Translations under genes and position numbers: made by a program
Part shown: one piece after another, positions 12,609-47,278 of the stretch
Position numbering within the stretch: the first letter of the stretch is position 1
Layout: each line of letters opens with the position of its first letter
Assembly: GCF_026684035.1 (NCBI RefSeq)
Contig: NZ_CP113361.1
Coordinates: 2,504,715 to 2,568,714 of the forward strand
Origin: Methanogenium organophilum
GTDB lineage: Archaea > Halobacteriota > Methanomicrobia > Methanomicrobiales > Methanomicrobiaceae
Direction: 5' to 3'
Length of the DNA stretch: 64,000 nt
Notes under the pieces: generated by a model
The model's input: the letters and a program-made list of their open reading frames with translations, nothing else
Databases searched by the model: none
What the model was told of the DNA's origin: nothing

Positions 12609-12668
12609 GCACCAGTTTTAGGAACAAATTAGACAGTTACCAAATTATTCATCACGTAATGTGGATTT

Positions 12669-15427: not shown

Positions 15428-15429
15428 TT

Positions 15430-16440: not shown

Positions 16441-16443
16441 GAT

Positions 16444-16452
16444 CCTCCTCCT
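16444..16452 (-). promoter_or_regulatory. Shine-Dalgarno site deciding a GTG start
   Basis: The minus strand reads AGGAGGAGG just before ATC-GTG at 16440. This is the strongest ribosome binding site near the radical SAM gene and rules out the upstream ATG at 16584. Confidence 0.6.
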
Positions 16453-16529
16453 ACCAATCGGTTGCCATCTGAAAAATGGCAGGGAAATGTAATAAACCTT
16501 TAAGTCCTGCAGACAAATTAATATCCTGA

Positions 16530-17231
16530 ATGAAAACCGTAGTGATCTCACTGGGTGGCTCTGTTTTGGTACCGGATATCGCAAATAATAATATTATAAA
16601 ATATCGGGATCTTCTGATTAGTCTTAAAGACACATGCCAGATTTTTATTGTGGTGGGCGGGGGTGGCGAAGCCCGTCGTTACATCGGGGCAGCGCGTGAT
16701 CTGAACATTGATGAAGGAACAGCAGACGAAATAGGGATCCTCATCACCCGGCTGAATGCCCGTCTCCTGATGCATGCATTAGGTAAAGAAAGTTACCCTG
16801 ACATCCCTGAATCATATAATGATGCGCTCATTGCCGGTGAAAGCGGAAAGATTGTTATTATGGGTGGTGTAACTCCCGCACAGACAACAGATGCCGTTGC
16901 AGCGGTTCTTGCAGAGCGCGCAGGAGCAGATCTTCTGATCAACGCCACGGCAGTTGACGGAATATACACAGCAGATCCACGAAAAGACGCATCTGCGATG
17001 AAAATCCCGTATCTTACTCCGGATGAACTGATTGAAATCGTTCAGAAAGGAAGGATGGATGCAGGGTCCAATAATGTGATCGATCTTGTGGCGGCAAAAG
17101 TAATCCAGCGCAGTAAAATTCCAATGGTAGTGCTTGATGGAAGATATCCGGATGGACTACTTGCTTTGATCAAGACTGGTTCAAAAACGGGAAGCCTGGT
17201 ATCCTATAATCCGGATCAGACAGAATTTTGA
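16530..17231 (+). CDS. pyrH: Archaeal-type UMP kinase
   Basis: Phosphorylates UMP to UDP in pyrimidine nucleotide synthesis. 233 residues, amino-acid-kinase fold. Motifs: ISLGGSVLVP (phosphate loop), VVGGGGEARRYI, MGGVTPAQTTDAVAA and TAVDGIYTADPRKD (nucleotide-binding), AGSNNVIDLVAAKVI. Length and motifs fit the archaeal PyrH subfamily. Isopentenyl phosphate kinase, also in this fold, lacks the TTDAVAA and DGIYTADP arrangement. Divergent from the radical SAM gene and followed 56 nt later by tRNA-Pro. Confidence 0.93.
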   Translation: MKTVVISLGGSVLVPDIANNNIIKYRDLLISLKDTCQIFIVVGGGGEARRYIGAARDLNIDEGTADEIGILITRLNARLLMHALGKESYPDIPESYNDALIAGESGKIVIMGGVTPAQTTDAVAAVLAERAGADLLINATAVDGIYTADPRKDASAMKIPYLTPDELIEIVQKGRMDAGSNNVIDLVAAKVIQRSKIPMVVLDGRYPDGLLALIKTGSKTGSLVSYNPDQTEF

Positions 17232-17287
17232 AAATTAAAATCGGCAACTATTTTTACCCAACTCGCCAATATAATGTGCAACACAAG

Positions 17288-17362
17288 GGGGCAGTAGGGT
17301 AGCCTGGTCCATCCTAGAGCGTTTGGGACGCTTTGACGGCAGTTCGAATCTGCCCTGCCCCA
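17288..17362 (+). tRNA. tRNA-Pro(TGG)
   Basis: Cloverleaf folds by eye: acceptor GGGGCAG with CTGCCCC (17288-17294 / 17355-17361), D arm GGG...CTA, anticodon stem GAGCG/CGCTT with loop TTTGGGA (anticodon TGG), T arm GGCAG-TTCGAAT-CTGCC, discriminator A. No intron and no encoded CCA. Closely resembles other archaeal tRNA-Pro in the D loop (TAGCCTGGTCC). A TATA-like AATATAAT lies about 20 bp upstream. Confidence 0.96.
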
Positions 17363-17371
17363 TTTATTATT

Positions 17372-18013
17372 ATGATTCAGGAAGAAGCAAACCTGATTCT
17401 TGCTATTCTTGCAGAAGATTATCCTATACATAATGGCATAGTATCGTTCCTTAAATTTGAAAATCCATTTCAGATACTTATTTTGACCATTCTCTCTGCT
17501 CAAACAACAGATAGGACAGTAAATGGTATCTCCAAGGAGCTATTCGGAAAATATCCTGATGCAGATGCAATGGCACATGCCTCTCCTGAAGAAGTGGAAT
17601 CACTAATCCACTCAACCGGGTTTTACCATACAAAGGCAAAAAACATCATTGCAACCTCCCGCATTCTCGTTACACAATACAATGGGGAAGTTCCGCAGAC
17701 TATGAGTGATCTTGTCACCCTTCCGGGGGTCGGAAGAAAGACTGCAAATATTGTACTGAACCATGCGTTCGGACAGAATGTTGGAATAGCTGTTGATACG
17801 CATGTGAGACGGCTTTCCCAGAGAATTGGCTTTACCGATGCAAACACTCCTGATGCCATTGAAACAGATTTAATGAATCTTTTCAATCAATCCCAGTGGA
17901 AATATATTAATTATCTTCTCATATCACATGGGCGGGCCGTATGCACTGCTAAAAAGCCCCACTGTGGCGTGTGCAGAATTTCAGCCCACTGCCGTTTCTT
18001 TAAAGAAAAATAA
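17372..18013 (+). CDS. nth: Endonuclease III (DNA glycosylase/AP lyase)
   Basis: Removes oxidised pyrimidines and cuts the abasic strand in base-excision repair. 213 residues: helix-hairpin-helix LPGVGRKTANIVL with catalytic Lys (about 115-127), the catalytic Asp in VDTHV (about 139-143), and the C-terminal 4Fe-4S motif CTAKKPHCGVCRISAHC (CX6CX2CX5C). All active-site residues are present. The ATG at 17372 is 9 nt after the tRNA. The longer frame would start inside the tRNA gene and is rejected. Confidence 0.96.
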   Translation: MIQEEANLILAILAEDYPIHNGIVSFLKFENPFQILILTILSAQTTDRTVNGISKELFGKYPDADAMAHASPEEVESLIHSTGFYHTKAKNIIATSRILVTQYNGEVPQTMSDLVTLPGVGRKTANIVLNHAFGQNVGIAVDTHVRRLSQRIGFTDANTPDAIETDLMNLFNQSQWKYINYLLISHGRAVCTAKKPHCGVCRISAHCRFFKEK

Positions 18014-31562: not shown

Positions 31563-32087
31563 CTACACCCTGTATTTTACCACCTTTGCAGGATTCCCGA
31601 CAGCAATTCCATAATCCGGGATATCCTTTACCACGATGCTCCCGGCACCGACAACTGCACCTGTTCCAATAGTAACCCCCTTAAGAATTGTGACATTAGC
31701 TCCGATCCACACATCATCACCAATAAAAACAGGTTTTTTGTAATGTGGTTGTTCCCGGATAAGAAGATCTCGTTTTAAGCCATGATCCCTGGCCCAGATA
31801 ATTGTTTTTGGGCCAATCTGAACATCATTGCCTATTGTAATCTCTCCAAGAAAATGGCATCCGGCATTCATATAAAAATTATCACCAATTGTGATAATCG
31901 GATCTCCCAAAAGTCTACAATATGGTTCGACTATTGCTTTTCCGTTAAAATTAACAGAAGAAAAAGTACAATTCTTATGTATTAAAACGCCATTACGTCT
32001 TAAATTAACTCTTTTAATATAATTGATCAAATAATTTTTAACGCCCTTAGACATACTTCCACCACACTCATGAAAATCGCTTTGCAA
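31563..32087 (-). CDS. Hexapeptide-repeat O-acyltransferase (maltose/colanic-acid acetyltransferase-like)
   Basis: 174 residues, left-handed beta-helix acyltransferase transferring acetyl (or another acyl) from CoA to a sugar hydroxyl. Hexapeptide repeats appear as ITIGNDVQIGPKTII and VFIGDDVWIGANVTILKGVT, followed by IGTGAVVGAGSIVVKDIPDY and the family end GNPAKVVKYRV. The His of WARDHGLKRD is in the usual catalytic position. Starts at 32087 or 32054 (MSKGVKNYL). Both overlap the ATP-grasp gene, by 61 or 28 nt. Confidence 0.87.
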   Translation of the reverse strand: MQSDFHECGGSMSKGVKNYLINYIKRVNLRRNGVLIHKNCTFSSVNFNGKAIVEPYCRLLGDPIITIGDNFYMNAGCHFLGEITIGNDVQIGPKTIIWARDHGLKRDLLIREQPHYKKPVFIGDDVWIGANVTILKGVTIGTGAVVGAGSIVVKDIPDYGIAVGNPAKVVKYRV

Positions 32088-33205
32088 TCTATCAGAAATG
32101 GCTTGATATCATGCAGATCATAAATCGCAAAATATGTTTTTTTTGATTTGAAAATATTGTAAACAAAAATTTTTCTGTAGTATTTCCTTCTTATCAGATT
32201 AAGAATCTCATGTTTCAGATAAACAAAATGTATTTCAATATCCTTTATCTGTGTTTGTTTCTCTATAATTTGTCCGATTGCATCGAGATATTGTGCATAT
32301 TGAACAGTAACATTTGATAAATTTCCTACCCTATTCCACATCGTTGAACGGAGATTAATTTCCATTAATTTGAATTTACCATCCCGAGAATCATACTTAA
32401 ATTCCGATTCGATAATTCCTTTGAGATCCATACCTTCAAAAAGAATTCGTCCCTGTTGCAAAACCTGGTTTGGCGCTTCATTTGAAGCACTGGAAAAAAC
32501 CCCATAATCATCTGGAAACTGGGATAATTTTTTTCCGGTCCATTCACTAAGAATCTCTCCATCCTGACTCCGATATCCTACATATGCATAAATATTTGTA
32601 CTATCTCCGGGGATTATTTCTGATGCCAAAAACGTTATCCCGGACCCAAGATAATCCTCAAGCAATTCCCGTTTTTCTTCCAGTTCGTTTTTGCTTTCCA
32701 GTTTAAGATTTTTAAAAACATTGATCTTCTGATCATCCCGTCTATTTGGTTTTATTAAAATGGGATATTGAATTGTATTAATAGAATTTAGCTGATCAAT
32801 GTCATCCACCGGGATTGTCTTGGGATGAGGTAATCCTAATTTTTCACAGTATAAATATTGAGAATATTTATCAAAGCATTCCAAAAAATTATCATAATTA
32901 TAGGGCAAAAAGCAGAATGAAGCAATATCCGGGTGTATTTTGTGAAGATTTTGCATTTGCAGTTCATCAGTTGGAAAAATAATAATCTGTTCATATTCCT
33001 TATGTAAACTGTTAAGTTTCTCATATAAGCACTCTGGCGATTTGTTAATAAGAACAAATTTTTTTATTTTATTACTATATGATGCAATTTTTCTGGAGGT
33101 ATCAAAAAGGATGATATTTTCGACATTTTTTTCATAAAGTTCCTGAATAATTGAATAACCGTTTACATATCCTCCGAGAACTAAAGCACAATTATTTTTC
33201 TTCAT
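32027..33205 (-). CDS. ATP-grasp family protein
   Basis: 392 residues. N-terminal ALVLGGYVNGYSIIQELYEK is a Rossmann-like preATP-grasp part, then YPILIKPNRRD (about 148-158) is the ATP-binding Lys strand and LMEINLRSTMWNR near residue 290 the metal-binding Glu/Asn/Arg end, as in carboxylate-amine/thiol ligases of the ATP-grasp fold. Similar proteins sit in many polysaccharide clusters and are thought to attach amino acids or other amines to sugar acids, but the substrate here is unknown. It overlaps the acyltransferase and follows the deacetylase by 35 nt. Confidence 0.8.
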   Translation of the reverse strand: MKKNNCALVLGGYVNGYSIIQELYEKNVENIILFDTSRKIASYSNKIKKFVLINKSPECLYEKLNSLHKEYEQIIIFPTDELQMQNLHKIHPDIASFCFLPYNYDNFLECFDKYSQYLYCEKLGLPHPKTIPVDDIDQLNSINTIQYPILIKPNRRDDQKINVFKNLKLESKNELEEKRELLEDYLGSGITFLASEIIPGDSTNIYAYVGYRSQDGEILSEWTGKKLSQFPDDYGVFSSASNEAPNQVLQQGRILFEGMDLKGIIESEFKYDSRDGKFKLMEINLRSTMWNRVGNLSNVTVQYAQYLDAIGQIIEKQTQIKDIEIHFVYLKHEILNLIRRKYYRKIFVYNIFKSKKTYFAIYDLHDIKPFLIDCKAIFMSVVEVCLRALKII

Positions 33206-33240
33206 TTATCGTACCAGACATTTTGGTAACAATAATTATG

Positions 33241-34293
33241 TCACCGATTTCTCATATACCTGAAATTGTGTTCAATTTCCTCTCCACTTGTAATCCATGC
33301 ATTTTTCTCATAGCAGTATTCAAGAATCTTAATATACATCTTTTTCTCAGTTGTTCCATCCAGGAACATAGAATTATGCCACAAAAGCGTGAAAACTCCC
33401 CTGCATTCTTCAACTCTATCAATGAGACGTTTAACACAATCCAGAGCTACATCAGAGCTAAGTCTCATATAATCAGAAAATATCGTACCATCCATCACCA
33501 CAAGTGGAATCTCAAGAATATCTATTATAGAACCAGAATTAAGGTTATATGGCATAAAGGGGTGGCACATTCCGTTCCTAAAACCGATACAATCTGCATA
33601 CCCCAATGTTGTATCATAGAGAAATCCTGCATTGGCTATATGTTCCCATGTATCCGGGGTGCGGAAGCGGAGATAATGATTCCGGTAACCAACAATCGTT
33701 GTTCCAAGGACATTCTCCAGTCTCTTTTTTTCATCACTGATACGATCATAGGAATTATAAGCTTCATGCCCCCCATGAAGTCCCACCTCACACCCACGAG
33801 ATCTGATTATTCTCAGATCATCTTTCAGATCCATAACATCGTATGAATAATCCAGATCTCCTGGTTGTAAAGCAAGGAAATAAAAACTTGATTTGGCATT
33901 ATATTTTTCTTCCAAATCCATTATTTCTTCAAAATTACATAATGGGTATCGTTTATTGAGTGCACCTTTGATGGATACTGAAAGTCCATTTTTGTCCAGT
34001 CTACAGAGATTTTTTGCTACAAGATATCTTCTTTCGGGAATACTGCGGAAAACAATGTCGATATCATGTGTAAGGCAAACAGCAAATTTTTTACCATCCG
34101 GGTATTCTGGTTTATAGCCAGAATCCATCAGAAATTGGGATACATCCGGTTTAAAAATGTCTCTTGTTTTGCTGAGATAATATGAAAAACGATCGTGCTG
34201 ATCTCGGAATTCGGGATTGTATTCTTCCTTTCGGGTAAAATTATCCCATAATTCCGCCTGATTTTGAATTCTTTCAAGATATTCCCTGTTCAT
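33241..34293 (-). CDS. Polysaccharide-deacetylase-like (NodB fold) protein
   Basis: 350 residues. The CE4-type elements are LTHDID (about 74-79), the HGGHEAY histidine pair (about 174-180) and YRNHYLRF, matching the metal-binding Asp/His/His and the following Arg motif. No signal peptide, so cytoplasmic. It may deacetylate a nucleotide- or lipid-linked N-acetyl sugar before modification. It lies 11 nt after wecB, whose product is an N-acetylhexosamine nucleotide. Confidence 0.82.
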   Translation of the reverse strand: MNREYLERIQNQAELWDNFTRKEEYNPEFRDQHDRFSYYLSKTRDIFKPDVSQFLMDSGYKPEYPDGKKFAVCLTHDIDIVFRSIPERRYLVAKNLCRLDKNGLSVSIKGALNKRYPLCNFEEIMDLEEKYNAKSSFYFLALQPGDLDYSYDVMDLKDDLRIIRSRGCEVGLHGGHEAYNSYDRISDEKKRLENVLGTTIVGYRNHYLRFRTPDTWEHIANAGFLYDTTLGYADCIGFRNGMCHPFMPYNLNSGSIIDILEIPLVVMDGTIFSDYMRLSSDVALDCVKRLIDRVEECRGVFTLLWHNSMFLDGTTEKKMYIKILEYCYEKNAWITSGEEIEHNFRYMRNR

Positions 34294-36418: not shown

Positions 36419-36775
36419 TCATATAAAATCTAAATTAAATATCGCCACTCCTAAAATAATTATCAAAACAGATCCGATTATCCTTGGATTTACCTCCTCT
36501 TTCAAAAAAACCGATGAGAAAATTACCACTACAACAAAATTTAATCCCGTAAGTGCATAAAATACTTTAAGGTCTATCTCACGGAGCGCTAACACGGTTG
36601 AAATTGTAACAAGCACAAAAATCGCATATGCACATACAATCGGTAATTTCAAATAATCACCAATAAATCCTCTGAATCTCCCATCACGCCCTGCTGCCCA
36701 CTTTAAAATCGTCTGTGATATCCCAGTCAGAAGAATTGATAAAATTGCAAAAAAAAGACCTCCGGTTGGTATCAT
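36419..36775 (-). CDS. Small EamA/SMR-type transporter (ArnF-like)
   Basis: 118 residues with four hydrophobic helices, the size and layout of small multidrug resistance proteins and of ArnE/ArnF, the pair thought to move undecaprenyl-phosphate-aminoarabinose across the membrane. Overlaps the preceding, similar gene by 4 nt and follows an ArnC-like transferase, so a heterodimeric flippase for a polyprenyl-phosphate sugar is the best reading (inference from context). Confidence 0.75.
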   Translation of the reverse strand: MIPTGGLFFAILSILLTGISQTILKWAAGRDGRFRGFIGDYLKLPIVCAYAIFVLVTISTVLALREIDLKVFYALTGLNFVVVVIFSSVFLKEEVNPRIIGSVLIIILGVAIFNLDFI

Positions 36776-37179
36776 TGTACATCACTTTTCAGATCAGAAT
36801 TGTCATCTAAAGTTTGCCTGTTTTTGAACTCCCGTGATAGCACTGCAATACCAATAGAGATCAATAAAAGACCGATGATATTTTCAACAGTAATTCCTTC
36901 GCTAAAAAGCACAGCTGAGGCAATAAGGATTACAAAATTAACAATACTCATAAAGGGATAAGCTAATGATAGAGGGTAATGTTTCAGGGCCTGCTGCCAT
37001 ACCAACGCCTGAAATACCATACATACGAGAGAGAATATATAGAACATATTTGTTAGGATATTTAACGGAAAAGATGACAGGATAGAGATGCTCATCGCTG
37101 CATATTTCCCGGTGATGCCCGCCATTGCCTGAAAGAGGATGGCAAGAATAATAAAGAGATAATTTGAATGTTCTTTCAT
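36772..37179 (-). CDS. Small EamA/SMR-type transporter (ArnE-like)
   Basis: 135 residues, four predicted transmembrane helices (for example YPLSLAYPFMSIVNFVILIA) with a hydrophilic C-terminus. Starts one base after the stop of the GT2 gene and overlaps the second small transporter. Expected partner in a two-subunit flippase. See the following gene for reasoning. Confidence 0.75.
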   Translation of the reverse strand: MKEHSNYLFIILAILFQAMAGITGKYAAMSISILSSFPLNILTNMFYIFSLVCMVFQALVWQQALKHYPLSLAYPFMSIVNFVILIASAVLFSEGITVENIIGLLLISIGIAVLSREFKNRQTLDDNSDLKSDVQ

Positions 37180-37180
37180 T

Positions 37181-38116
37181 TTAAAGATATTTCTCCCCGA
37201 TTACATACTGTTGTCCATACGATACTTCAACAAGAACTCTCCTTAAATATTCTCCAATAATGCCAAGAGACAGTAATATCATTCCTGATAAAAATGACAC
37301 CGCAACCATAAGGGAACTCCATCCAATAATGCCAAAAGAAGGATCTGTCAGACTTCGTATAATCACTGATATTCCATATAAAATGCTAAGAATACTGGTA
37401 ATAAATCCTAATGAACTAATCAGTGTCAATGGAAGAACAGAGTGATTAATAATTAAGTTTAATGAGAGTTTTATATACTTCAGAAATGAATAATTAGATT
37501 GTCCTTTTTTTCTTGGGTTATGAATAACTTCAACATCGGTAACATTGTCCATTGATGTACTTTCACTGATTACTGCTGCCAAAAAAATATATGAGCCTTT
37601 AAACGTACAGGCATTTTTTATTACATCTCTTGAAAAAATTGCAAAACTCGAAAGATAAACAGAATCAGGGATTTTTAAAATATTATGCATTAATTTTTCA
37701 AATATATGGCTGAAAAAATTTTCAGTCCTGCTATGTTGTTTTTGAATATATCTCCCATAAACGACATCATATCCTTCTTTTATCTTATTTAACAGCACAG
37801 GTATCTCTTCAGGAGGATGCTGAAGATCATCATCCATGATAACTATATAATCTCCTTTGGCAAAATGGAAGCCGCATAGCGTTGCATTATGCTGTCCAAA
37901 ATTTCTCTGCAAATGGATAATTCGTATATTATTATTTTTCCGGCTAATTTTTTGTAATATGTCCCAACTATTATCAGAACTGCAGTCATCAATAAAGATG
38001 ATTTCATAATCTTCAATTCCCTTTGAAAATACTGCAGCAAGCCTGTCAGTTAATTCAACTAACGTATTCTCGCTGTTATAAACAGGAATTACTACTGAAA
38101 TTTTTTGATTTGCCAT
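37181..38116 (-). CDS. Polyprenyl-phosphate glycosyltransferase, GT2 family (ArnC/GtrB/DPM1-like)
   Basis: 311 residues. GT-A catalytic domain with VVIPVYNSENTL, DDCSSDNSW and the metal-binding DDDLQHPPEE (about 95-104), then two C-terminal transmembrane helices (about 232-255 and 267-290) and the short tail GEYLRRVLVEV. This is the arrangement of enzymes that move one sugar from a nucleotide to a membrane polyprenyl phosphate. Followed by two ArnE/ArnF-type proteins as in bacterial aminoarabinose operons. Confidence 0.92.
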   Translation of the reverse strand: MANQKISVVIPVYNSENTLVELTDRLAAVFSKGIEDYEIIFIDDCSSDNSWDILQKISRKNNNIRIIHLQRNFGQHNATLCGFHFAKGDYIVIMDDDLQHPPEEIPVLLNKIKEGYDVVYGRYIQKQHSRTENFFSHIFEKLMHNILKIPDSVYLSSFAIFSRDVIKNACTFKGSYIFLAAVISESTSMDNVTDVEVIHNPRKKGQSNYSFLKYIKLSLNLIINHSVLPLTLISSLGFITSILSILYGISVIIRSLTDPSFGIIGWSSLMVAVSFLSGMILLSLGIIGEYLRRVLVEVSYGQQYVIGEKYL

Positions 38117-38272: not shown

Positions 38273-39019
38273 TTATTCATAGATTTTCCTCATAACAATT
38301 TTTTCATCAGTTAAATGAAAGCCAAAATGAATATATACATTAAATACATCCAGATTATGACTGGATATCGAAGTGGTGGCTACCTTAATTCCCTGCGAAA
38401 ATGCAGAATTAAGACAATCAGTCAATAAACCAACAATGAATCCATACCCTTTGAATTTTTCTGAAACACCCCCTAACATAAAATGCATTTCATCAGATTC
38501 ATTTTTGATCATTGAAAATCCAATAATATCCCTGTTTTTTTTTGAAAGATATACATATGTCAAATAATTCTCATCATCAAATGAATTTAAGAACCAGTTC
38601 TTATATCGCAACCCAGAATATTTTTGATCTAATTTTGGATCTAAAAAATAGCGATCCGTATCAAATGTCGTTGTAATAATCTTTGTTATTTCATGCACTG
38701 CTTTTTGATCAGAATAATCCAGTCTCTGCAAAAAGCAATGCTTTGAATAAAACGAATCAGGATATTTTATACTAATCTCTTTCTTTAATTCGTATAGTGA
38801 CTCCATATAATTAAAGCCAAGTTCTTCCAGGTAGTGGATTTTCCTAAAATCTCTGCTATTTAATTTTATAAAACTCATAAACGCATTATCAATCGAACAA
38901 CTCTCATCAATCTCTTTTAATTCAGGTTTGCTGAAATAATCAGTGTTCTGAATCTCAAACACGTTTTTATGAAATAATTTAGTGTCCCATTCAATCAAAT
39001 CCTTTTTCATGCGAATCAT
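38273..39019 (-). CDS. GNAT-type N-acyltransferase, WecD-like
   Basis: 248 residues. N-terminal part WDTKLFHKNVFEIQ resembles the start of dTDP-fucosamine acetyltransferase WecD. The C-terminal GNAT domain carries the acyl-CoA loop region around VSEKFKGYGFIVGLLTDC (an altered Q/RxxGxG/A). WecD acylates the 4-amino group made by WecE, and a WecE orthologue is encoded upstream on the same strand, which supports the call. Donor may be acyl-CoA or, given the ACP nearby, acyl-ACP (speculative). Start at 39019 or the Met three codons on. Confidence 0.68.
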   Translation of the reverse strand: MIRMKKDLIEWDTKLFHKNVFEIQNTDYFSKPELKEIDESCSIDNAFMSFIKLNSRDFRKIHYLEELGFNYMESLYELKKEISIKYPDSFYSKHCFLQRLDYSDQKAVHEITKIITTTFDTDRYFLDPKLDQKYSGLRYKNWFLNSFDDENYLTYVYLSKKNRDIIGFSMIKNESDEMHFMLGGVSEKFKGYGFIVGLLTDCLNSAFSQGIKVATTSISSHNLDVFNVYIHFGFHLTDEKIVMRKIYE

Positions 39020-39114: not shown

Positions 39115-40128
39115 TCAAACAGTGTCTGGACCATCTATTTCGTGCATATTTTTCCCATCATTAGAATATTCACTAATAATTCTATCTGCAATCTGAGGTC
39201 CGGTAAGATTATTCTCTTCCAGAAGATATTGATAGTCACCAACTCTTTGAAAAGCATCATGAATGCCAATTTTTACTTGTCGTGGTGTATTTGCAATTTC
39301 GCTCAGGCATTCTGCTACTGCTCCACCAAGACCTCCAATCACTGAATGTTCTTCAACAGTCACAATAAGGTTTGAGTGTAGACACACATCATTGATTATC
39401 GCAGTGTCAAGTGGTTTTATCGTATGCATGTTGATAACAGATGCCGACACCCCTTTTTCATGTAATATTTCAGCAGCTTTGAGGGATTCATAGACCATAG
39501 TGCCGGTTGCAATAATTGCTATGTCTCTTCCATTTTTGAGTTGTATTGCTTTACCAAATTCATATTCATAATCTTCATTATAGACTATCGGATTTTTCAT
39601 TCCACCGCTTAGACGGACATACATTGGCCCCTGATAACGTGCTGCACTTTTAATGACTTTTACCGTTTCCAATCCATCAGCAGGCGAAACCACCATTACA
39701 TTTGGGATGGCTCTCATGAGGGTAAGATCCTCTATACCATAATGGGTATTTCCGGACATCCCCATAGCAAGACCACTTCCCGTTCCGATGACTTTGACAT
39801 TGGATTTCATATATCCAAGCTGGACACGAATTTGTTCATACGAACGCATTGCCAGGAAATTTGAATATGTCGTTACGAAAACATTCTTTCCCTCTTTTGC
39901 CATTCCGGCAGCGACACCCACCATATTCTGCTCTGCAATTCCGGTGTTAATTAATTTTTCAGGAAATTTTTCCTTAAATCGCGTAAGCCCTGTGAGGGTT
40001 GTTAAGTCTGCAGTTAGAACGACTATTTCATCATCCTGGGCAGCAATTTCCTCCATACTTATTGCAAATGCTCCACGTTGGCCAAGTTTTGAAATAAAAC
40101 GGATATTTAATAGATTTGAATTAGTCAT
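39115..40128 (-). CDS. Transketolase, C-terminal subunit
   Basis: 337 residues: pyrimidine-binding domain (FPEKLINTGIAEQNMVGVAAGMAKEG, which includes the catalytic Glu of TPP enzymes) plus the C-terminal transketolase domain (VEEHSVIGGLGGAVAE). Pairs with the adjacent N-terminal subunit to make one TPP-dependent enzyme that moves two-carbon units. Start set at the ATG at 40128, giving an 8-nt overlap with the partner; the longer frame adds 12 residues inside it. Its location among sugar-modification genes suggests a specialised acceptor rather than central metabolism. Confidence 0.92.
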   Translation of the reverse strand: MTNSNLLNIRFISKLGQRGAFAISMEEIAAQDDEIVVLTADLTTLTGLTRFKEKFPEKLINTGIAEQNMVGVAAGMAKEGKNVFVTTYSNFLAMRSYEQIRVQLGYMKSNVKVIGTGSGLAMGMSGNTHYGIEDLTLMRAIPNVMVVSPADGLETVKVIKSAARYQGPMYVRLSGGMKNPIVYNEDYEYEFGKAIQLKNGRDIAIIATGTMVYESLKAAEILHEKGVSASVINMHTIKPLDTAIINDVCLHSNLIVTVEEHSVIGGLGGAVAECLSEIANTPRQVKIGIHDAFQRVGDYQYLLEENNLTGPQIADRIISEYSNDGKNMHEIDGPDTV

Positions 40129-40987
40129 TATTTGCCCCCCGTATTTCTTCAATGGCCTGATCATATTGCTTCCGGGACAGAACAGAATGATGCCACGCTT
40201 TGTTGTTCTCCATAAATGAGACGCCTTTTCCTTTTATCGTACTTGCAATGATCACATGTGGTTTTACGATAGCAGATTGCGTACAGCATGAAAAGGCATG
40301 ATATAAATCCCTAATATTATGACCGTCAACTTCTGTTACTTCCCAGCCAAAACTCTCCCACTTGGCCTTAAAATTATCCAGATTCATAACATCACAACAC
40401 GGCCCGTCATATTGCAATTTGTTATGATCAACAATCACAATCAGATTTGACAGATGATAATGCGATGCAAACATGGCAGCTTCCCATATCGAACCTTCAT
40501 CACATTCTCCATCCCCGACAAGAACATACGTAAGATAGGGCTTTTTTTCCATTTTTCCTGCCAGAGCAATTCCGGCTCCAAATGGCAATCCCATTCCAAG
40601 ACTGCCAGTTGAACATTCAATGCCCTTCTCCATATTGAGAATTGGATGACCGGGTAAAAATTCCCCGCTGACTTCAAATTTTAGTAATTCATCTGTTGAA
40701 AAAAATCCTGCTTCGGCGAGTGCGGTATAATAAGCCAGAACACCGTGTCCTTTGCTAAGAATAAAACGGTCTCGATTATCCCATTCCGGATTATCCGGAT
40801 CAAAACGAAGGATTCCCCCATAAAGGGTTGCCATAATTTCTATCATTGACAACCCTCCGCCAATATGTGAACCAATTGATCCAACTGAATAGGCCATTTT
40901 TAATGCTTGTTCCCGCATTCGCCCAGCCATTTTTTCAATAAAAGAAATTTTATTCTCTATTTCATCACTTTCAAATGTATACTCCAT
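40121..40987 (-). CDS. Transketolase, N-terminal (TPP-binding) subunit
   Basis: 288 residues. SVGSIGSHIGGGLSMIEIMATLYGG, KGHGVLAYYTALAEAG, and the TPP/metal motif VGDGECDEGSIWEAAMFASHY...DHNKLQ (GDG-x-N-type, about 155-195). Split transketolases are usual in archaea, but this one is encoded in the surface-sugar locus directly after the LuxC block. Together with the C-terminal subunit it may transfer a ketol group to an aldehyde. Confidence 0.93.
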   Translation of the reverse strand: MEYTFESDEIENKISFIEKMAGRMREQALKMAYSVGSIGSHIGGGLSMIEIMATLYGGILRFDPDNPEWDNRDRFILSKGHGVLAYYTALAEAGFFSTDELLKFEVSGEFLPGHPILNMEKGIECSTGSLGMGLPFGAGIALAGKMEKKPYLTYVLVGDGECDEGSIWEAAMFASHYHLSNLIVIVDHNKLQYDGPCCDVMNLDNFKAKWESFGWEVTEVDGHNIRDLYHAFSCCTQSAIVKPHVIIASTIKGKGVSFMENNKAWHHSVLSRKQYDQAIEEIRGANND

Positions 40988-41509
40988 TTTTTACGCCCCC
41001 CACCCCGATAATCACCTCAAGCATATGATGAAAATATGCCAAAATAATGTGACAAGGGTATCCCGTTTGGTTCCCCGTAACCTACAGGACACACATTGAT
41101 GCCAAAATCGTTTTGACTTTCTCACCCATGTTTTTTTATCATATTAATTTCTGTCATATCAGGCACCGGAATATCAATTTGTAATTGTTTCAGATGATAT
41201 TCCTCTCATAGTATTATTACATCTCCAAAGACTTCCTAACAAGAGAAATTGTCTGGATTTTCGGGATATCATCAACACCTGCTATATCCGTCAGACATTT
41301 AATACTTTTTGGCAGAAGCCAAAATATTCGGTTGAATGTATTGAAGATTAACCATATGTTTATGGAAAAAACCGGTGGTTGGATATTTCTTAAATCCTGA
41401 GAATTGGGTTAAAATGAATATAAACGACGCTAATTAATTTTGGATGATGGAGAGTATCATAAAATGACATATGTGAAGTAACAGTTGCGTTTTGGAATAT
41501 TTAAAACAA
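40988..41509. other. Intergenic region between luxC-type gene and transketolase
   Basis: No gene recognised. AT-rich, probably with the promoter for the transketolase/WecD/ArnC unit near its left edge (GGGGGGCGTAAAAA upstream of 40987 on the minus strand supplies a purine-rich ribosome binding site). Confidence 0.4.
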
Positions 41510-42802
41510 TTATTTAAGTATTGTCCACCTCACAAGTCTGCTTAAAGGTAGAATTCCATCCCAGGGAAGATCATAATCATGAATTGTTCCGGGACTAACA
41601 ATTCTGTCGACGCCACAATATGTTGCTTCAAGAGCAAAATTCTCTCTTTTTTCCGGATCTAATATTGAAACAGATAATGCCTGAATTTTTCGTGTAATTA
41701 GTTCAGTAACATTATCAACAGAATCAACTTCTTTCAGAAAAATGCATTTGCCATGAATCGGTTCTTCTAACCGAAGATCATTATCGATTAAAATTGTCCA
41801 GCTTAAATCATCAGAGGCAATGACTGACTTATCATCTGACAATAAATATTTTGCACGGATGTTGATGATATTTGCAAGTATTCCTGGATCCGTGGGCTGT
41901 ATTCTCAAATCTTCCGGAAGATTTGCAAAATACCCGCCCAGTCGCTCCCCAATGTGCTGGAGCTGATATTTACTTTTTTCAAAGAATAGCACCTGAGGGG
42001 ATGAACAAGCCATCTGGTTGAAAGATGCAATGTCTTTTGCAGTTTTTTCTAAAGAATTTTCGAAAAGATCACTCTCAATAAATGCATGGTCAAACACACA
42101 AAATGAATATTTTGGCCCATATACTATTGTTTCACAGTGGTCTTTTTGTGGCAATGCCAATATTGACTGTATTGCTTTTGAACCACCATATATCAATCTG
42201 CAATCAGCATTAATTGAAAAATCTGCACTTATTTCATGATTTCTTCCTTCAAAGGAGACGACTGAAATTGCTTTAACAATATCAATTGCAGAATAGTTTG
42301 TGTCATCATATGAAATTTCAACTGTTGCAAGTTCCTGTAGAAAATCAAGAAGAACATCTTTGTTCTCTTCAGGAACCTTGACAATACTTCCGTTCTTTGA
42401 AAGAATTGTCTGAATAATTGAGATAATTGCTAAGTTCGGGATATTCGCTGCAACCCAAAGGCAAACAACTCCTCTTGGCTGCGCAGTCAATTTGAAACGA
42501 TTTTCTACTTTAGAAAAGGAATCCGGATAGGAAAGGTTTCCATAATTTATTCGGCAGATTTGTTCCAGATTTTTCTTTCTCAACCACAGGGACAAATATG
42601 TCATTCCCTGGATTTTGTTAAGATGTGGATTTTTTATGATTTTTTTCCCCATTGCGGATAACATCTCAATGATTATCGGCAATGGCAATTCATAGAGTGC
42701 CCTGCGATTGGCATTCACAATATGTGATATAGCGGCAAAATTATCCGGATTTTGCTCAGAAAATTTCCCATCAAGCAAATAACACTTAACCACAAAATTC
42801 AC
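41510..42802 (-). CDS. luxC: Acyl-CoA/acyl-enzyme reductase, LuxC family
   Basis: Reduces an activated acyl group to an aldehyde with NADPH. 430 residues, aldehyde-dehydrogenase-like fold. GVVCLWVAANIPNLAI (about 110-125) matches the LuxC nucleotide/acyl region, and FNQMACSSPQVLFFE (about 267-281) carries the catalytic Cys that is acylated in LuxC. Begins in a 4-nt overlap with the LuxE-like gene, as luxE and luxC are partners in bacterial fatty acid reductase. LuxC proteins are known mainly from luminous and polysaccharide-making bacteria, and an archaeal copy next to an ACP is unusual. The substrate need not be a fatty acid. Confidence 0.88.
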   Translation of the reverse strand: MNFVVKCYLLDGKFSEQNPDNFAAISHIVNANRRALYELPLPIIIEMLSAMGKKIIKNPHLNKIQGMTYLSLWLRKKNLEQICRINYGNLSYPDSFSKVENRFKLTAQPRGVVCLWVAANIPNLAIISIIQTILSKNGSIVKVPEENKDVLLDFLQELATVEISYDDTNYSAIDIVKAISVVSFEGRNHEISADFSINADCRLIYGGSKAIQSILALPQKDHCETIVYGPKYSFCVFDHAFIESDLFENSLEKTAKDIASFNQMACSSPQVLFFEKSKYQLQHIGERLGGYFANLPEDLRIQPTDPGILANIINIRAKYLLSDDKSVIASDDLSWTILIDNDLRLEEPIHGKCIFLKEVDSVDNVTELITRKIQALSVSILDPEKRENFALEATYCGVDRIVSPGTIHDYDLPWDGILPLSRLVRWTILK

Positions 42803-43914
42803 TCCTTAAACGTATCTCCACATCCACGAATCTCTGCTTTTTCAATGCGTGATGAGAATCTGAAATATGTTCCTTTTCGTCCGCACGGGCAGTCATCAAT
42901 TCCCACTACATACCCTAGATCTTCAGTAAGGATCGCCTGAGAATAATAGCTATCTGACAATATGCTCAAAATTTCAATCATTCCAATTTCGCCTACTGCA
43001 CAGGGCTGAAGGGAGTAGGGGTTTCTAACAATTACCTGTGATATATTTGGAACATGTTTATTTCCACACTCACAGTCTACAAATATAATACCTGTCTGTT
43101 CAGCCATGCCATAAAAATCCAGAATATTACCTGTATCAGTATTAAAAACTGAAGACAAAGCTTCTGAAAAGAATTCTTTTGAAACCTTTTCTTCTTTAAG
43201 CTTCTTCCACCCTCCGCTATGAAATAACAAAATGTCATTAAATGCAAAACTGATGTCTTTCTCAATTATTTGCTTATAAAATACCGACCAGATTATATAG
43301 GTGAAGCCAAATGCATACACATCTTTGCCAGAGTATTTTTCAATAACTTCCTTAATCACTGGCTCATTTAATGTCAGTTTCCCGTTTTCTTCCTTAAGAA
43401 GATAATATGTGTCCTTTGCATAGATGCTAAGCCCCCTTACACCAGCAGTTCGTGCGGAAAATTCAGAAACAGAATTATTGATACCTTCATGATCAATTAC
43501 AAGGAATATTTTCCGTTTATTTCCCATATAATCCGAAAGAATTTGTTTTAATGATTTCATCTGCTTTAAAACAGTTTTCTTGTTTAACGGCACCATACTG
43601 GTATTGTCACTTGTTGTGCCACTTGAACGCAGAATTTTAACAATATTTCCGGAATCACAGGTTGATAAATTAAAATATTTAAACATCTGAACAGGAATTT
43701 GTGGAATCTCTTCTATTTTTGTAATTGAGGAAATATCTATGCCCTGTTTTGAAAACATGTTTTTTATGTGAGTGTTATTTTCAACGGCATTTTCAAGCTG
43801 AATTTTAAGTATTCCGGTTAAAATCTGATTTTTTTCCCGATCTTCTAAGATATACGGTGATTTCGTCAACAATTCATTGATCTCAGAATCGAGGTTTATC
43901 ATAGAATCAGTCAC
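42799..43914 (-). CDS. luxE: Acyl-protein synthetase, LuxE family
   Basis: 371 residues, ANL-superfamily ligase that adenylates a carboxylate and passes the acyl group to its own Cys and on to LuxC. LRSSGTTSDNTSMVPL (about 98-113) is the ATP loop of the LuxE type, FYGMAEQTG a second adenylate-site motif. The C-terminus ends RGCGDTFKE, with Cys365 placed as the acyl-carrying Cys near the end of LuxE. Overlaps the preceding ligase gene by 8 nt and luxC by 4 nt. Confidence 0.88.
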   Translation of the reverse strand: MTDSMINLDSEINELLTKSPYILEDREKNQILTGILKIQLENAVENNTHIKNMFSKQGIDISSITKIEEIPQIPVQMFKYFNLSTCDSGNIVKILRSSGTTSDNTSMVPLNKKTVLKQMKSLKQILSDYMGNKRKIFLVIDHEGINNSVSEFSARTAGVRGLSIYAKDTYYLLKEENGKLTLNEPVIKEVIEKYSGKDVYAFGFTYIIWSVFYKQIIEKDISFAFNDILLFHSGGWKKLKEEKVSKEFFSEALSSVFNTDTGNILDFYGMAEQTGIIFVDCECGNKHVPNISQVIVRNPYSLQPCAVGEIGMIEILSILSDSYYSQAILTEDLGYVVGIDDCPCGRKGTYFRFSSRIEKAEIRGCGDTFKE

Positions 43915-45376
43915 TTAAAATCATCTCCATAATTTTATTCCGATCTACTTTGCCTGATGAATTCAATGGAAATTCTTTGAAGACAAATACTTTTTTTGGA
44001 ACCTTATATGAAGGCAGATTTTTATTGCAACAGGAAAGAATAATATCGTCAATCTGATTTTTTTCATCAATTTTTGACCGGACTGCTGCAACAACCCCTT
44101 CACCCATTATATCATCTGGTATCCCGATTACCACACATTCAAATATGGAATCAAGACTGAGGATAACATCTTCAATTTCTTTTGGGGAAATTCTGTATCC
44201 CCCGGATTTTATAATGTTTTTTGAGCGACCGACGATGTAGATAAAACCATCAGAATCGATTGTTGCAAGATCACCGGTATATAGTCTCCCGTTTTTTAAA
44301 ACTTTAGCTGTTTCCACAGGGTCTCCATAATATCCTTTCATAATATTGTTGCCACATGCTGTTATCTCACCAATCTCACCATGTTTGATTTTATTTCCAT
44401 TCTTATCAAGGACTTCAAGTAATACCCCCGGGATTCCTTTTCCAATAGAACCCATTTTTTCCCTGATTAGATGCGGAGGCAAATAGGACAGTCTTGAAGT
44501 TGCCTCTGTGGCTCCATACATTAAATAAAATTCCTTATCGGGAAATGAATCCACAATTTTTTCTATGTATTTATTGGGAAGATGCCCCCCGGACTGTGCA
44601 AAATAACGTAAAGATGGATAATCTCCTTCTAATAGCGGTGATTTATTTATTAATATCTGATAGGTGCTGGGAACACCGGCAAACCCTGTACAATTGTGCT
44701 TATTTATATCCTTAATAACGGAACCCAGAAATGGTTTATTATGCAGATAAATGCTGCCGCCTGCACGAATATGTGTATGAAGTAGAGAAGCACCAAAACA
44801 ATAGAAAAAGGGTAGTACAATATAAATTCGATCATTTTTTGTTAAATTCAAATATTCAACAATCGAATTCGTATTCTCACAGAGATTTCTGTGTGTCAGC
44901 ATCACTCCCTTTTTTGTTCCGGTACTGCCGGAAGTAAAGATTATGACAGCGACATTATCGTCATAATTTTCCGGAGTGATTATTTTTTTTGTTTCATAGA
45001 ATGATTCCTTTAGGAAAGATTCAGTGTATATATCATCACTGATTCCTGGAAATTTACATTGGTATTTTTCCTGAATGAAATATGCACCTAATGAACATGT
45101 ATCAAGAACATCCTGAAGATCTTTATTACTAATCTGTGTTTCAATGAGTACAGCTATATTTCCACTTTTAATTATTGCCAAATAACTGATAATAAAAAAA
45201 TCATTGTTATCAGAAAGGAGCAAAATTTTTTTTCCCGTGGAATATTTGGTTTGGATAAAATAAGCCAGATTAATTATTTTTTCATACATTTCATTATAAC
45301 AAATTTCATCCTTACCTGCGAGTACAGGATTTGTGGATAATTTATTCTCTTCAAATAAATAATCTACAAAATTCAT
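43907..45376 (-). CDS. AMP-dependent acyl ligase (acyl-ACP/acyl-CoA synthetase-like)
   Basis: 489 residues, ANL superfamily. IIFTSGSTGTKKGVMLTHRNL (about 150-170) is the phosphate loop, LMYGATEATSRL the adenylate motif, YTGDLATIDSDGFIYIVGR the hinge region, and GKVDRNKI the C-terminal catalytic Lys. Directly follows the acyl carrier protein gene (start one base after its stop; a Met 8 codons earlier is inside that gene). This suggests that it loads an acid or amino acid onto the carrier. Second acid-activating enzyme in the operon beside LuxE. Confidence 0.9.
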   Translation of the reverse strand: MNFVDYLFEENKLSTNPVLAGKDEICYNEMYEKIINLAYFIQTKYSTGKKILLLSDNNDFFIISYLAIIKSGNIAVLIETQISNKDLQDVLDTCSLGAYFIQEKYQCKFPGISDDIYTESFLKESFYETKKIITPENYDDNVAVIIFTSGSTGTKKGVMLTHRNLCENTNSIVEYLNLTKNDRIYIVLPFFYCFGASLLHTHIRAGGSIYLHNKPFLGSVIKDINKHNCTGFAGVPSTYQILINKSPLLEGDYPSLRYFAQSGGHLPNKYIEKIVDSFPDKEFYLMYGATEATSRLSYLPPHLIREKMGSIGKGIPGVLLEVLDKNGNKIKHGEIGEITACGNNIMKGYYGDPVETAKVLKNGRLYTGDLATIDSDGFIYIVGRSKNIIKSGGYRISPKEIEDVILSLDSIFECVVIGIPDDIMGEGVVAAVRSKIDEKNQIDDIILSCCNKNLPSYKVPKKVFVFKEFPLNSSGKVDRNKIMEMILSD

Positions 45377-45377
45377 T

Positions 45378-45620
45378 TTACTCAGCCAAATATTTTGCAA
45401 TAGTCTCTTTAATTAATCCAAAATTTTCCATTGCAATAATATCGTCCATTTGAAATTCCAGATCAAATTGATCTTCATATTCTGACACTAACTGAAGATG
45501 TTTTAAGGAATCCCACTTGTCGAAAGAATTATATGCAGTATCATCATTGACATAAGATTCTTCAACACCCATTACATTGCAGAATATCTTTTTAATCATG
45601 TATTCTGGTTCATTTGTCAT
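45378..45620 (-). CDS. Acyl carrier protein
   Basis: 80 residues, acidic, four-helix. FDKWDSLKHLQL holds the phosphopantetheine Ser (DSL, about Ser36). The IRR-like start MTNEPEYMIKKIFCNVMGV and the hydrophobic ends fit ACP. Overlaps the holo-ACP synthase gene by 4 nt. Archaea as a rule lack ACP-based fatty acid synthesis, so this carrier must serve a specific pathway, presumably with the adjacent ligases and LuxC. Confidence 0.93.
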   Translation of the reverse strand: MTNEPEYMIKKIFCNVMGVEESYVNDDTAYNSFDKWDSLKHLQLVSEYEDQFDLEFQMDDIIAMENFGLIKETIAKYLAE

Positions 45621-45997
45621 TTTTCCAACACCCCATAAATAATTGCAAATGCGATTGCTTTATCTTCACAATGTGAAATACTGATTTCAGTCTTTAGTTT
45701 TTCATAACTTTTAACCTTTATCCATACCTTAGGCACTCCATTTTCATCATTCAGTATCTCAATTTTTTTGTAGGCTACCGGTTTTAATCCATATGCATAA
45801 AGGGCTTTAATTACAGCCTCTTTCCCTGCAAATCTACCTGCTAAATGAGAACATGCATTTTCCTTTGAAAAGCAATAATCAAGTTCATTGTCAGAGTAAT
45901 TCTTTTGCAAAAAAGAGTATTCTTCATTATTTACAATATCATTAAAGCGACGAATGGTTACTATATCTGTTCCAATAGAGATTTGCATAAAATCCAT
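45617..45997 (-). CDS. acpS: Holo-ACP synthase (4'-phosphopantetheinyl transferase)
   Basis: Transfers phosphopantetheine from CoA to the Ser of the adjacent carrier. 126 residues: SIGTDIVTIRRF (Mg-binding Asp), HLAGRFAGKEAVIKAL (RFAxKEA signature with catalytic Glu/Lys) and EISISHCEDKAIAFAII. Complete AcpS-type enzyme at normal length. Placed 12 nt after the transaminase gene and just before the carrier, so the two are a functional pair. Confidence 0.93.
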   Translation of the reverse strand: MDFMQISIGTDIVTIRRFNDIVNNEEYSFLQKNYSDNELDYCFSKENACSHLAGRFAGKEAVIKALYAYGLKPVAYKKIEILNDENGVPKVWIKVKSYEKLKTEISISHCEDKAIAFAIIYGVLEK

Positions 45998-46009
45998 CCT
46001 TTTTCTAAT

Positions 46010-47170
46010 TTATATTACATTATACGAATATATCAATTTCAATAACACATTATCGATATATTTTTGTTCATTTAATCCAATACCTGCAAAAATAGGCAAC
46101 CTCAGTAACCGCCCACTGATATCCTCTGTGATTGGAAGATCACCTTCAGCATATCCATATTGCCGTCCCATAGGAGCAGAATGTAATGGGACATAATGAA
46201 AAACAGCATAAATGCTTTGCCTTTTAAGTTTTTCAAGCATTTCATTGCGAACAGCCTCTGTTTCAAAAAGTATATAGAATAAATGGGCATTGTGTTCAGC
46301 ATATTCAGGAATAACAGGAAGCCGAATCCACCCTCTCTGTTCGAATGGTTTTAACGTTTCATAATATGAATTCCAAACAGAAAGCCGCTTTTCTTGAATA
46401 TCATCCAGATGCTCAAGTTGGGCATATAATAAAGCTACCAGAATATCACTGGGTAGATAACTTGAACCAATATCAACCCAAGTATATTTGTCTACTTCTC
46501 CACGGAAAAACTGGCTACGGTTAGTACCCTTCTCTCTTAAAATCTCTGCACGATCATTGATTTTGGGTTCATCTGTGTTGATGAGAAGAGCACCTCCTTC
46601 TCCGCAGACATAATTCTTTGTTTCATGGAAACTATAACACCCAAAATCTCCTATAGTTCCAAGATATTTCCCTTTGTACTTAGCATTCACTCCCTGAGCA
46701 GCGTCTTCCACTACTGAGAGACCATGAGTGTCCGCTATCTCCATAATTTCATCCATGGCACATGAAACGCCTCCATAATGAACAGGACATATAGCACGGG
46801 TATTTTTAGTGATCTTTTTCCTGATATCCTCAGGGTCAATGTTTAGGGTATCGCTGGAAATATCTGCAAAAACAGGCTTTCCTCCGGCCAAAATAATTGC
46901 ATTCGCGGTCGAGGGAAATGTGTAAGATGGAAGAATTACTTCATCTCCAGGTTTGAGATTTAGCAAATAAAACGCAAGCTCAAGGGCGCTGGTACCTGAT
47001 GTTGTTAAGAGAGCCTTGCGTGCACCAAAACGATTTTCAAAAAATTGCTGAACAAGCTTTGTATATTTACCATCACCACTGATATGGCCACCCGACTGAG
47101 ATAACTGGATCGCATCTTCAATATATGACAGTTCATTTCCTGTCAGATAAGGACAGTTAAATGGAATCAT
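46010..47170 (-). CDS. wecE: dTDP-4-amino-4,6-dideoxygalactose transaminase (WecE/RffA type)
   Basis: Converts dTDP-4-keto-6-deoxyglucose with glutamate to the 4-amino sugar. 386 residues, PLP fold type I. Begins IPFNCPYLTGNELSYIEDAI; SGTSALELA, VEDAAQGV (PLP Asp), SFHETKNY (PLP Lys), EKGTNRSQFFRGEVDKYTW and VFHYVPLHSAP match WecE closely. The ATG at 47170 reproduces the family N-terminus. The frame is open 36 codons further (to 47278), but that part is unrelated to the family. Substrate supplied by RmlA/RmlB. Confidence 0.92.
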   Translation of the reverse strand: MIPFNCPYLTGNELSYIEDAIQLSQSGGHISGDGKYTKLVQQFFENRFGARKALLTTSGTSALELAFYLLNLKPGDEVILPSYTFPSTANAIILAGGKPVFADISSDTLNIDPEDIRKKITKNTRAICPVHYGGVSCAMDEIMEIADTHGLSVVEDAAQGVNAKYKGKYLGTIGDFGCYSFHETKNYVCGEGGALLINTDEPKINDRAEILREKGTNRSQFFRGEVDKYTWVDIGSSYLPSDILVALLYAQLEHLDDIQEKRLSVWNSYYETLKPFEQRGWIRLPVIPEYAEHNAHLFYILFETEAVRNEMLEKLKRQSIYAVFHYVPLHSAPMGRQYGYAEGDLPITEDISGRLLRLPIFAGIGLNEQKYIDNVLLKLIYSYNVI

Positions 47171-47278
47171 TGGAATTTTATCCGAATGGATGAAATATTC
47201 AATAACTGAAGATTCACTCCCCTTCAAAATGGGATGTTTACGTGGAATCCTTGTTTTTTCCCTGACTGGATCAAACAT

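Follow-up and report, generated by a model that had tools for sequence, protein, structure and literature searches.

Genes for an acyl carrier protein (ACP), FabG, an ANL ligase, LuxE and LuxC lie in the group II flagellin glycosylation islands of Aeromonas (PMC7874193), and enterobacterial loci with the same core genes have been described (PMC4875605). The flagellin glycan of Aeromonas AH-3, whose island has the ACP-FabG-ANL-LuxE-LuxC genes, ends in an unidentified 102 Da unit. An insert in the flagellar locus of Dickeya zeae EC1 (W909_12275-12315) encodes an acyl-CoA reductase, LuxE, FadD, TktA, TktB, two FabG proteins, an ACP and an O-acetyltransferase (PMC4522980). The bacterial module is in print both with a transketolase pair (D. 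zeae) and without one (Aeromonas, Enterobacteria), and no mechanism was proposed there. Here we analyzed a 64,000-nt stretch of DNA (hereafter the window) from the archaeon Methanogenium organophilum (GCF_026684035.1, NZ_CP113361.1, positions 2,504,715-2,568,714 of the forward strand), in which such a module comes with its own holo-ACP synthase (AcpS) and a split transketolase. As the best explanation of the whole we propose, with about even confidence, that an acid is converted to an aldehyde and extended by ketol addition, feeding the decoration of a sugar of the deoxythymidine diphosphate-4-amino-4,6-dideoxygalactose (dTDP-Fuc4N) type. New features are the private AcpS of archaeal copies and module transketolases that lack the acceptor-gating Asp as well as both phosphate-site residues, His and Arg. 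In the open-licence literature we found no description of an archaeal module, of private AcpS genes or of transketolases with a lost phosphate site, and open-licence papers on the module in archaea, or on its association with transketolase, acetolactate synthase or nonulosonic acid, gave no mechanism.

Probable acid-to-aldehyde genes with their own carrier protein

The initial annotation of this DNA had described six genes in one direction, and six intact open reading frames (ORFs) for WecE, AcpS, ACP, ANL, LuxE and LuxC are indeed present, all on the minus strand. Coupling is tight from acpS on: AcpS (45617-45997) overlaps the 80-aa ACP (45378-45620) by 4 nt, the ANL acid:ACP ligase (43907-45376) overlaps the LuxE acyl-protein synthetase (42799-43914) by 8 nt, and LuxE overlaps the LuxC acyl-thioester reductase (41510-42802) by 4 nt. 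The longest ANL ORF extends to 45400; the one-base gap between ACP and ANL holds if ANL starts at the codon-9 ATG (45376), one base past the ACP stop. WecE is separated from AcpS by 12 nt, and its longest ORF spans 46010-47278, with the family start at Met37 (47170).

LuxE matched PF04443 (7e-54; 183.6 bits vs 24.9) and, by profile, the only solved LuxE (7xc6_E, E 2.3e-29). LuxC matched PF05893 (1.6e-60; 205.5 bits vs 21) and 7xc6_A (E 1.1e-21 by profile). The genome has one LuxE and one true LuxC, the other PF05893 match being an ordinary aldehyde dehydrogenase-like partial match. In alignments of seven archaeal loci, the catalytic residues and motifs proved invariant: the SSGTT loop (S97-T101) and near-terminal C365 of LuxE, the active-site C266 (ACSSP) of LuxC, Ser38 (WDSL) of ACP, and D11 and E60 of AcpS. 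Loss of the LuxC cysteine, which had been named as a sign against the proposal, was not seen. Families and catalytic residues support both the gene identities and the acid-to-aldehyde route by LuxE and LuxC, and we hold this core role to be probable.

A long-chain fatty aldehyde or alcohol destined for lipid, in the style of a lux operon, would fit the LuxE and LuxC families and the term fatty-aldehyde channelling used by the Aeromonas authors. It is improbable given that the scores fall far under the bioluminescence equivalog cut-offs (LuxC, NF052251, 83.8 vs 750 bits; LuxE, NF052244, 83.1 vs 550 bits), that the genes are located in sugar loci, and that the genome has no carrier-protein match elsewhere, so that nothing points to a fatty acid synthase of bacterial type.

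The Pfam PP-binding match of the ACP is weak (8.7e-4, 19.9 bits, just under the cut-off of 20.8) and its alignment is clear; a PF00550 search found no carrier protein scoring above it elsewhere in the genome. AcpS matched ACPS (3e-13) and TIGR00516 (73.7 bits vs 59.8) and is the only PF01648 match in the genome. ANL matched PF00501 (3e-58) and PF13193, and its translation contains the P-loop TSGSTG and the A10 lysine motif SGKVDR; its nearest solved structures are a mix of nonribosomal peptide synthetase adenylation domains and acyl-CoA ligases. A copy of AcpS lies next to the module in 12 of 15 archaeal loci vs 1 of 72 bacterial loci (p 3e-11); as the loci are related, this and the other co-occurrence p-values, which ignore kinship, serve as guides only. 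In a sample of 393 genomes of the phylum Halobacteriota, PF01648 exceeded its cut-off in 32, yet in all 7 of those carrying the module (p 1e-8, again a guide only). Our reading is that the module carries its own modifying enzyme into hosts without ACPs, while bacteria rely on a housekeeping AcpS. Because the private AcpS accompanies the module in ACP-lacking hosts, a functional holo-ACP is likely in the archaeal carrier, and with the invariant serine the earlier question of whether this ACP is fit for pantetheinylation was answered in favour of the annotation. Two loci from metagenome-assembled genomes (MAGs) of Thorarchaeota and Lokiarchaeota (L080 and L081) have ACP-ANL-LuxE-LuxC with no adjacent AcpS recognised.

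The unit does not end at LuxC, as had been assumed. The same-strand run continues with a 522-nt gap, the transketolase halves TktN and TktC, a GNAT protein, a GT2 glycosyltransferase and two small EamA/ArnE-like proteins, and both the transketolase and a short-chain dehydrogenase/reductase (SDR) belong to the module. In relatives, the gap after LuxC is occupied by one or two FabG-like SDR genes. The locus of Methanogenium marinum (L074; LuxE 84% identical) has the same gene order, WecE included, and its SDR is a damaged ORF (12623-13046) that still matches the SDR profile (7.8e-18), with a changed catalytic Ser/Lys region. The gap in the window aligns with this relic (67.7% over 433 nt, E 9e-23 by blastn; the LuxC DNA is 82% identical), which indicates that an SDR was once present and has since decayed (40988-41306); simple absence was rejected on the same ground. 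No ORF is found in the gap, the SDR profile itself has no match to the window relic, and the assignment is made by DNA similarity to the M. marinum relic. When GTDB genomes were scanned with a LuxE profile, at least 571 relatives were confirmed, and gene content was counted in 81 gene runs. SDR genes occur in 61 of the 81, usual though not universal; the window has no intact FabG-like SDR. Two further genes of the M. marinum locus, which lie between TktC and GNAT (14943-17703) and encode a PseF-PseG-like fusion and a synthase of the NeuB type, are absent from the window.

Could the locus be a decaying import without present function in this lineage? The SDR relics of both species, the TktN ORF of M. 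marinum, which begins behind a frameshift that is either genuine or a sequencing error, and a patchy presence in the genus would agree with it. The remaining window genes are intact, and the ratio of nonsynonymous to synonymous substitution (dN/dS) against M. marinum is 0.09-0.17 for all genes, indicating purifying selection; decay without function is thus very improbable. Because all genes are under such selection, the gene set is not a chance arrangement.

A split transketolase with an altered phosphate site

TktN (40121-40987; PF00456, 7e-45; 6yak, 4.5e-74) and TktC (39115-40164; PF02779 and PF02780; 6yaj, 1.9e-71) are the N- and C-terminal halves of a split transketolase. We aligned 41 module TktC proteins with human and Carboxydothermus transketolase as references, numbered as in the human enzyme. 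In transketolases of human and E. coli, H416, R474, R318 and S345 (human numbering) bind the substrate phosphate. The catalytic Glu (E366) is kept in 41/41 module proteins, S345 in 12/41, and H416, D424 and R474 in 0/41; in the window protein E366 is kept and these three are replaced by G, S and G, respectively. TktN keeps the catalytic His residues H37, H77, H258 and mostly H110. The thiamine diphosphate (ThDP) domains and the catalytic His and Glu of a transketolase are present, and the phosphate ligands H416, R474 and D424 of a housekeeping, sugar-phosphate transketolase are missing.

That the pair serves ordinary pentose metabolism and is merely adjacent to glycan genes could be argued from the 522-nt gap left by the SDR relic before TktN and from the fact that split transketolases are common in archaea. 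H, D and R are all kept, however, in seven housekeeping-type split transketolases that are 41-45% identical to the window protein (L170-L174 and L181 from module-bearing genomes, L156 from another genome of the same family), whereas the phosphate ligands are lost in all module copies. The DXS proteins of module-bearing genomes retain their own residue pattern. The TktN-TktC pair accompanies the module across phyla, and among 21 near relatives a close TktC was confined to the window genome, one congener and a single further genome, with no other close TktC in the window genome itself. Together these points make a role in pentose metabolism extremely improbable.

In E. coli transketolase S385 is a phosphate ligand, and the S385Y/D469T/R520Q variant is affected in aldehyde acceptance (PMC5073344); D469T accepts propanal (PMC10787763). 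Enzymes altered at S385, D469 and R520 take aldehydes that carry no phosphate, whether aliphatic or aromatic (PMC5073344, PMC10787763). At the positions that match S385, H461, D469 and R520, the window enzyme has other residues. Because the phosphate site is lost, we infer a non-phosphorylated acceptor, for which the LuxC aldehyde would be the obvious candidate. Changes at H100 or H473 belonged to engineering toward a pyruvate donor (PMC10787763), and the conservation of both equivalents here speaks for a ketol donor and against pyruvate. That the transketolase acts on the LuxE-LuxC aldehyde is, in our estimate, evenly balanced.

Of the 81 loci, 35 have TktN-TktC as part of the module's gene run. 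Seven other loci have an acetolactate synthase (ALS)-like ThDP enzyme, none of them together with TktC (p 0.017, kinship ignored), which suggests that a ThDP-dependent carbon-carbon step recurs in the module. In these variant loci (L082, L099, L107, L115, L121, L139 and L140) a NeuB-type synthase stands with the ThDP enzyme in 7/7.

A possible amino-sugar branch and the proposed pathway

WecE (46010-47170) is of the dTDP-4-keto-6-deoxyglucose C4 aminotransferase type. It matched DegT (1e-90), passed two equivalog cut-offs (NF008687, 558.6 vs 375 bits; and 525.7 vs 434.85 bits), has 6blg as its nearest PDB entry (E 2.4e-126) and keeps the pyridoxal phosphate-lysine motif HETKNY. RmlD-, RmlB- and RmlC-like genes lie on the minus strand at 386-2737 (TIGR01181, 482 bits vs 365; TIGR01214, 297 vs 224); the RmlC-like gene reached only 48 bits, below its cut-off. 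RmlB would supply the substrate of WecE. The GNAT gene (38273-39019), 2.5 kb downstream of LuxC and 75% identical in M. marinum, encodes a probable acyltransferase acting on a 4-amino sugar. In its AlphaFold2 model (mean predicted local distance difference test score 89.9), the nearest solved fold is WecD (2fs5; Z 21.9, 220 aligned residues, root-mean-square deviation 2.9; next 18.9), also first in Foldseek (E 9.9e-16), with which it shares the two-domain GNAT architecture, and the protein is under the WecD equivalog cut-off (NF008212, 31.3 vs 219 bits). WecD N-acetylates dTDP-Fuc4N.

The link to a dTDP-amino sugar proposed in the initial annotation stood in part. The WecE equivalog, the rmlB/C/D-type genes, the WecD-like fold and bacterial co-occurrence speak for it: nine bacterial loci in the set have a WecE-type DegT (at least 50% identity; 50-56%), accompanied in seven by the same GNAT family, and such a DegT occurs in 8 of 12 GNAT loci vs 2 of 74 without GNAT (p 4e-7, kinship ignored). 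WecE as a chance neighbour was rejected, since its orthologues and GNAT recur together beside the module in bacteria. The link does not hold generally, nor is WecE a constant part of the module: it is absent from the other six relatives in the order, save one with a 29% DegT protein. The dTDP-amino sugar thus goes with one common form of the module and is no general rule.

In the pathway we propose, the private AcpS would convert ACP to its holo form, and ANL would activate a carboxylic acid and could load it on ACP. The acyl group would then be released between the ANL and LuxE activations, as a thioesterase does in some bacterial loci; several of these have the thioesterase gene between ANL and LuxE, as LuxD feeds LuxE in bioluminescence. 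LuxE would re-activate the acid, forming an acyl-cysteine, and LuxC would take the acyl group on its own Cys and reduce it to an aldehyde. Acid loading, LuxE re-activation and LuxC reduction are assigned here by homology only. To this non-phosphorylated aldehyde the split transketolase, given its lost phosphate site, would add a two-carbon ketol unit, and in most relatives an SDR would then reduce the product, the gene having decayed in Methanogenium. In parallel, RmlB and WecE would make a dTDP-Fuc4N-type sugar, which the WecD-like GNAT may acylate or decorate before GT2 and polymer assembly act at the cell surface. Final attachment to the WecE-made sugar is a tentative step, to which we give somewhat less than an even chance.

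Several points weigh against this pathway. The SDR is dead here, and its part may be lost or covered elsewhere (two matches of 28-32%). Loci without TktN-TktC exist, so the transketolase is optional. Four divergent TktC-like proteins outside LuxE loci (L157, L175, L176 and L182) also lack the phosphate ligands, whose loss would mark specialised transketolases generally and is not peculiar to the module; these four are perhaps other specialised ThDP enzymes. The product of the transketolase would be a hydroxyketone, not an acid, which makes its route to GNAT problematic, and the two branches may be separate: either another acyl-ACP serves GNAT, or the ketone becomes a building block in its own right. 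The pathway steps are predictions from sequence.

The pairing of WecE with a WecD-like GNAT, for which an acyl-ACP would be a natural donor, also allows another account in which ANL loads ACP, GNAT moves the acid from ACP to dTDP-Fuc4N, and LuxE-LuxC and the transketolase serve to make another, separate component of the glycan or to prepare the acid beforehand. LuxE-LuxC are in every locus (by construction of the search), whereas DegT and GNAT are often absent; because of these absences, acylation of a 4-amino sugar cannot be the module's general role, and we consider this account unlikely. Beyond the window, the pathway of ketol addition to the aldehyde leads to a wider proposal, which we make with some reserve: a whole natural transketolase subfamily that has lost the sugar-phosphate site may ligate LuxE-LuxC aldehydes through carbon-carbon bonds and thereby supply the surface glycans of bacteria and archaea with constituents that are non-sugar or sugar-like, and archaea may have acquired this carrier chemistry with its own phosphopantetheinyl transferase.

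On the minus strand downstream of GNAT lie GT2 (37181-38116; PF00535, 4.5e-40; 82% in M. marinum and syntenic) and the two small EamA/ArnE-like membrane proteins (36419-36775 and 36772-37179; NF002816, 3.6e-8; PF00892, 2.2e-5), a possible flippase pair that is syntenic in M. marinum at 78-82%. Elsewhere in the window, 3354-6881 and 7981-9573 encode a pair of related beta-helix proteins, of which the larger has PKD domains; both are probable surface proteins. Adjacent ORFs of 392 and 350 aa without Pfam match (32027-34293) lie beside a UDP-GlcNAc 2-epimerase gene.

Distribution and comparison with known systems

The core AcpS-ACP-ANL-LuxE-LuxC was found in 7 of the 393 Halobacteriota genomes, the window genome included; the other six, from the same taxonomic order, share its gene arrangement, which is also conserved across bacteria. 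The neighbours thus proved conserved across related genomes, only not always beside WecE. The initial annotation knew of no archaeal pathway of this kind; the module turned out to be widespread in bacteria, to occur in several archaeal phyla and to be present already in published bacterial loci. The best 80 of at least 571 relatives include, among archaea, Methanobacteriota, Thermoplasmatota, Asgard archaea, Aenigmarchaeota and Nanohaloarchaea, and among bacteria Bacillota, Bacteroidota, Pseudomonadota, Spirochaetota, Melainabacteria and others. Besides the SDR, TktC (35) and ALS-like genes (7) given above, the 81 gene runs contain ACP (65), DegT (27), NeuB (17), PglD-like (17), GNAT (10), thioesterase (9), KASIII (8), FabA-like (8) and LDH (8) genes. 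In the window, ACP, ANL, LuxE and LuxC are adjacent on one strand, as in the bacterial surface-glycan module, and the locus is best read as such a module, horizontally shared with many bacterial loci. In the LuxE tree, a fully supported branch sets ten archaeal rows (the window's included) and one Acidobacteriota MAG apart, and two other methanogens (L042 and L043) lie inside the bacterial part. This would mean at least two separate histories of the module in archaea, with long-branch warnings. The Kosakonia copy (L088, two stretches), used to look for an E. coli serotype whose O-antigen structure is known, had no match in the E. coli genomes searched, and the LuxE relatives on plasmids were all distant ones, in Rhizobium, Priestia and others. 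In three methanogens (L035, L036 and L038) the module lies beside DNA topoisomerase VI A and B genes and also adjoins an unassigned gene with a homologue at 33241-34293 of the window, a possible insertion hot spot for glycan islands.

The analysis offers a concrete chemical hypothesis for a gene set that many bacteria carry and that has been classed simply as fatty acid genes. It also shows that a self-sufficient carrier-protein pathway for the cell surface was acquired by archaea, in which ACP and AcpS are mostly missing. If the transketolase step is true, nature already uses an altered active site like that engineered to join free aldehydes, and unidentified components of several flagellin glycans and surface glycans become open to testing. 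The 102 Da unit of Aeromonas AH-3 is possibly related to the module, which we note as a lead only.

The Aeromonas (PMC7874193) and enterobacterial (PMC4875605) loci share the core enzymes and the surface-glycan context with the window; they have no AcpS, no transketolase is named and no archaeal case is given, and roles are stated only as fatty acid or fatty aldehyde genes. The D. zeae EC1 insert contains the same module, transketolase pair included, but was reported as a fatty acid biosynthesis set that probably has no connection with flagella, with no AcpS and WecE unmentioned (PMC4522980). The bioluminescence LuxC-LuxE fatty acid reductase (PDB 7xc6) is alike in family, in both catalytic cysteines and in acid-to-aldehyde logic; unlike it, the module has ACP, an ANL ligase, transketolase and sugar genes, and stays far under the equivalog cut-offs. 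With WecE-WecD of the enterobacterial common antigen the locus shares the WecE equivalog and a GNAT whose nearest fold is WecD, although this GNAT is below the WecD cut-off and is here coupled to LuxE-LuxC and transketolase. The split transketolase of Carboxydothermus hydrogenoformans (PDB 6yaj, 6yak) has the same two-gene layout and the catalytic Glu and His, but the equivalents of H416, D424 and R474 (human numbering) are gone in the module enzymes. The E. coli transketolase S385Y/D469T/R520Q (PMC5073344) is altered at positions that are altered in the window enzyme too; it is man-made, whereas the natural module enzymes also lack the H461 equivalent and carry other residues.

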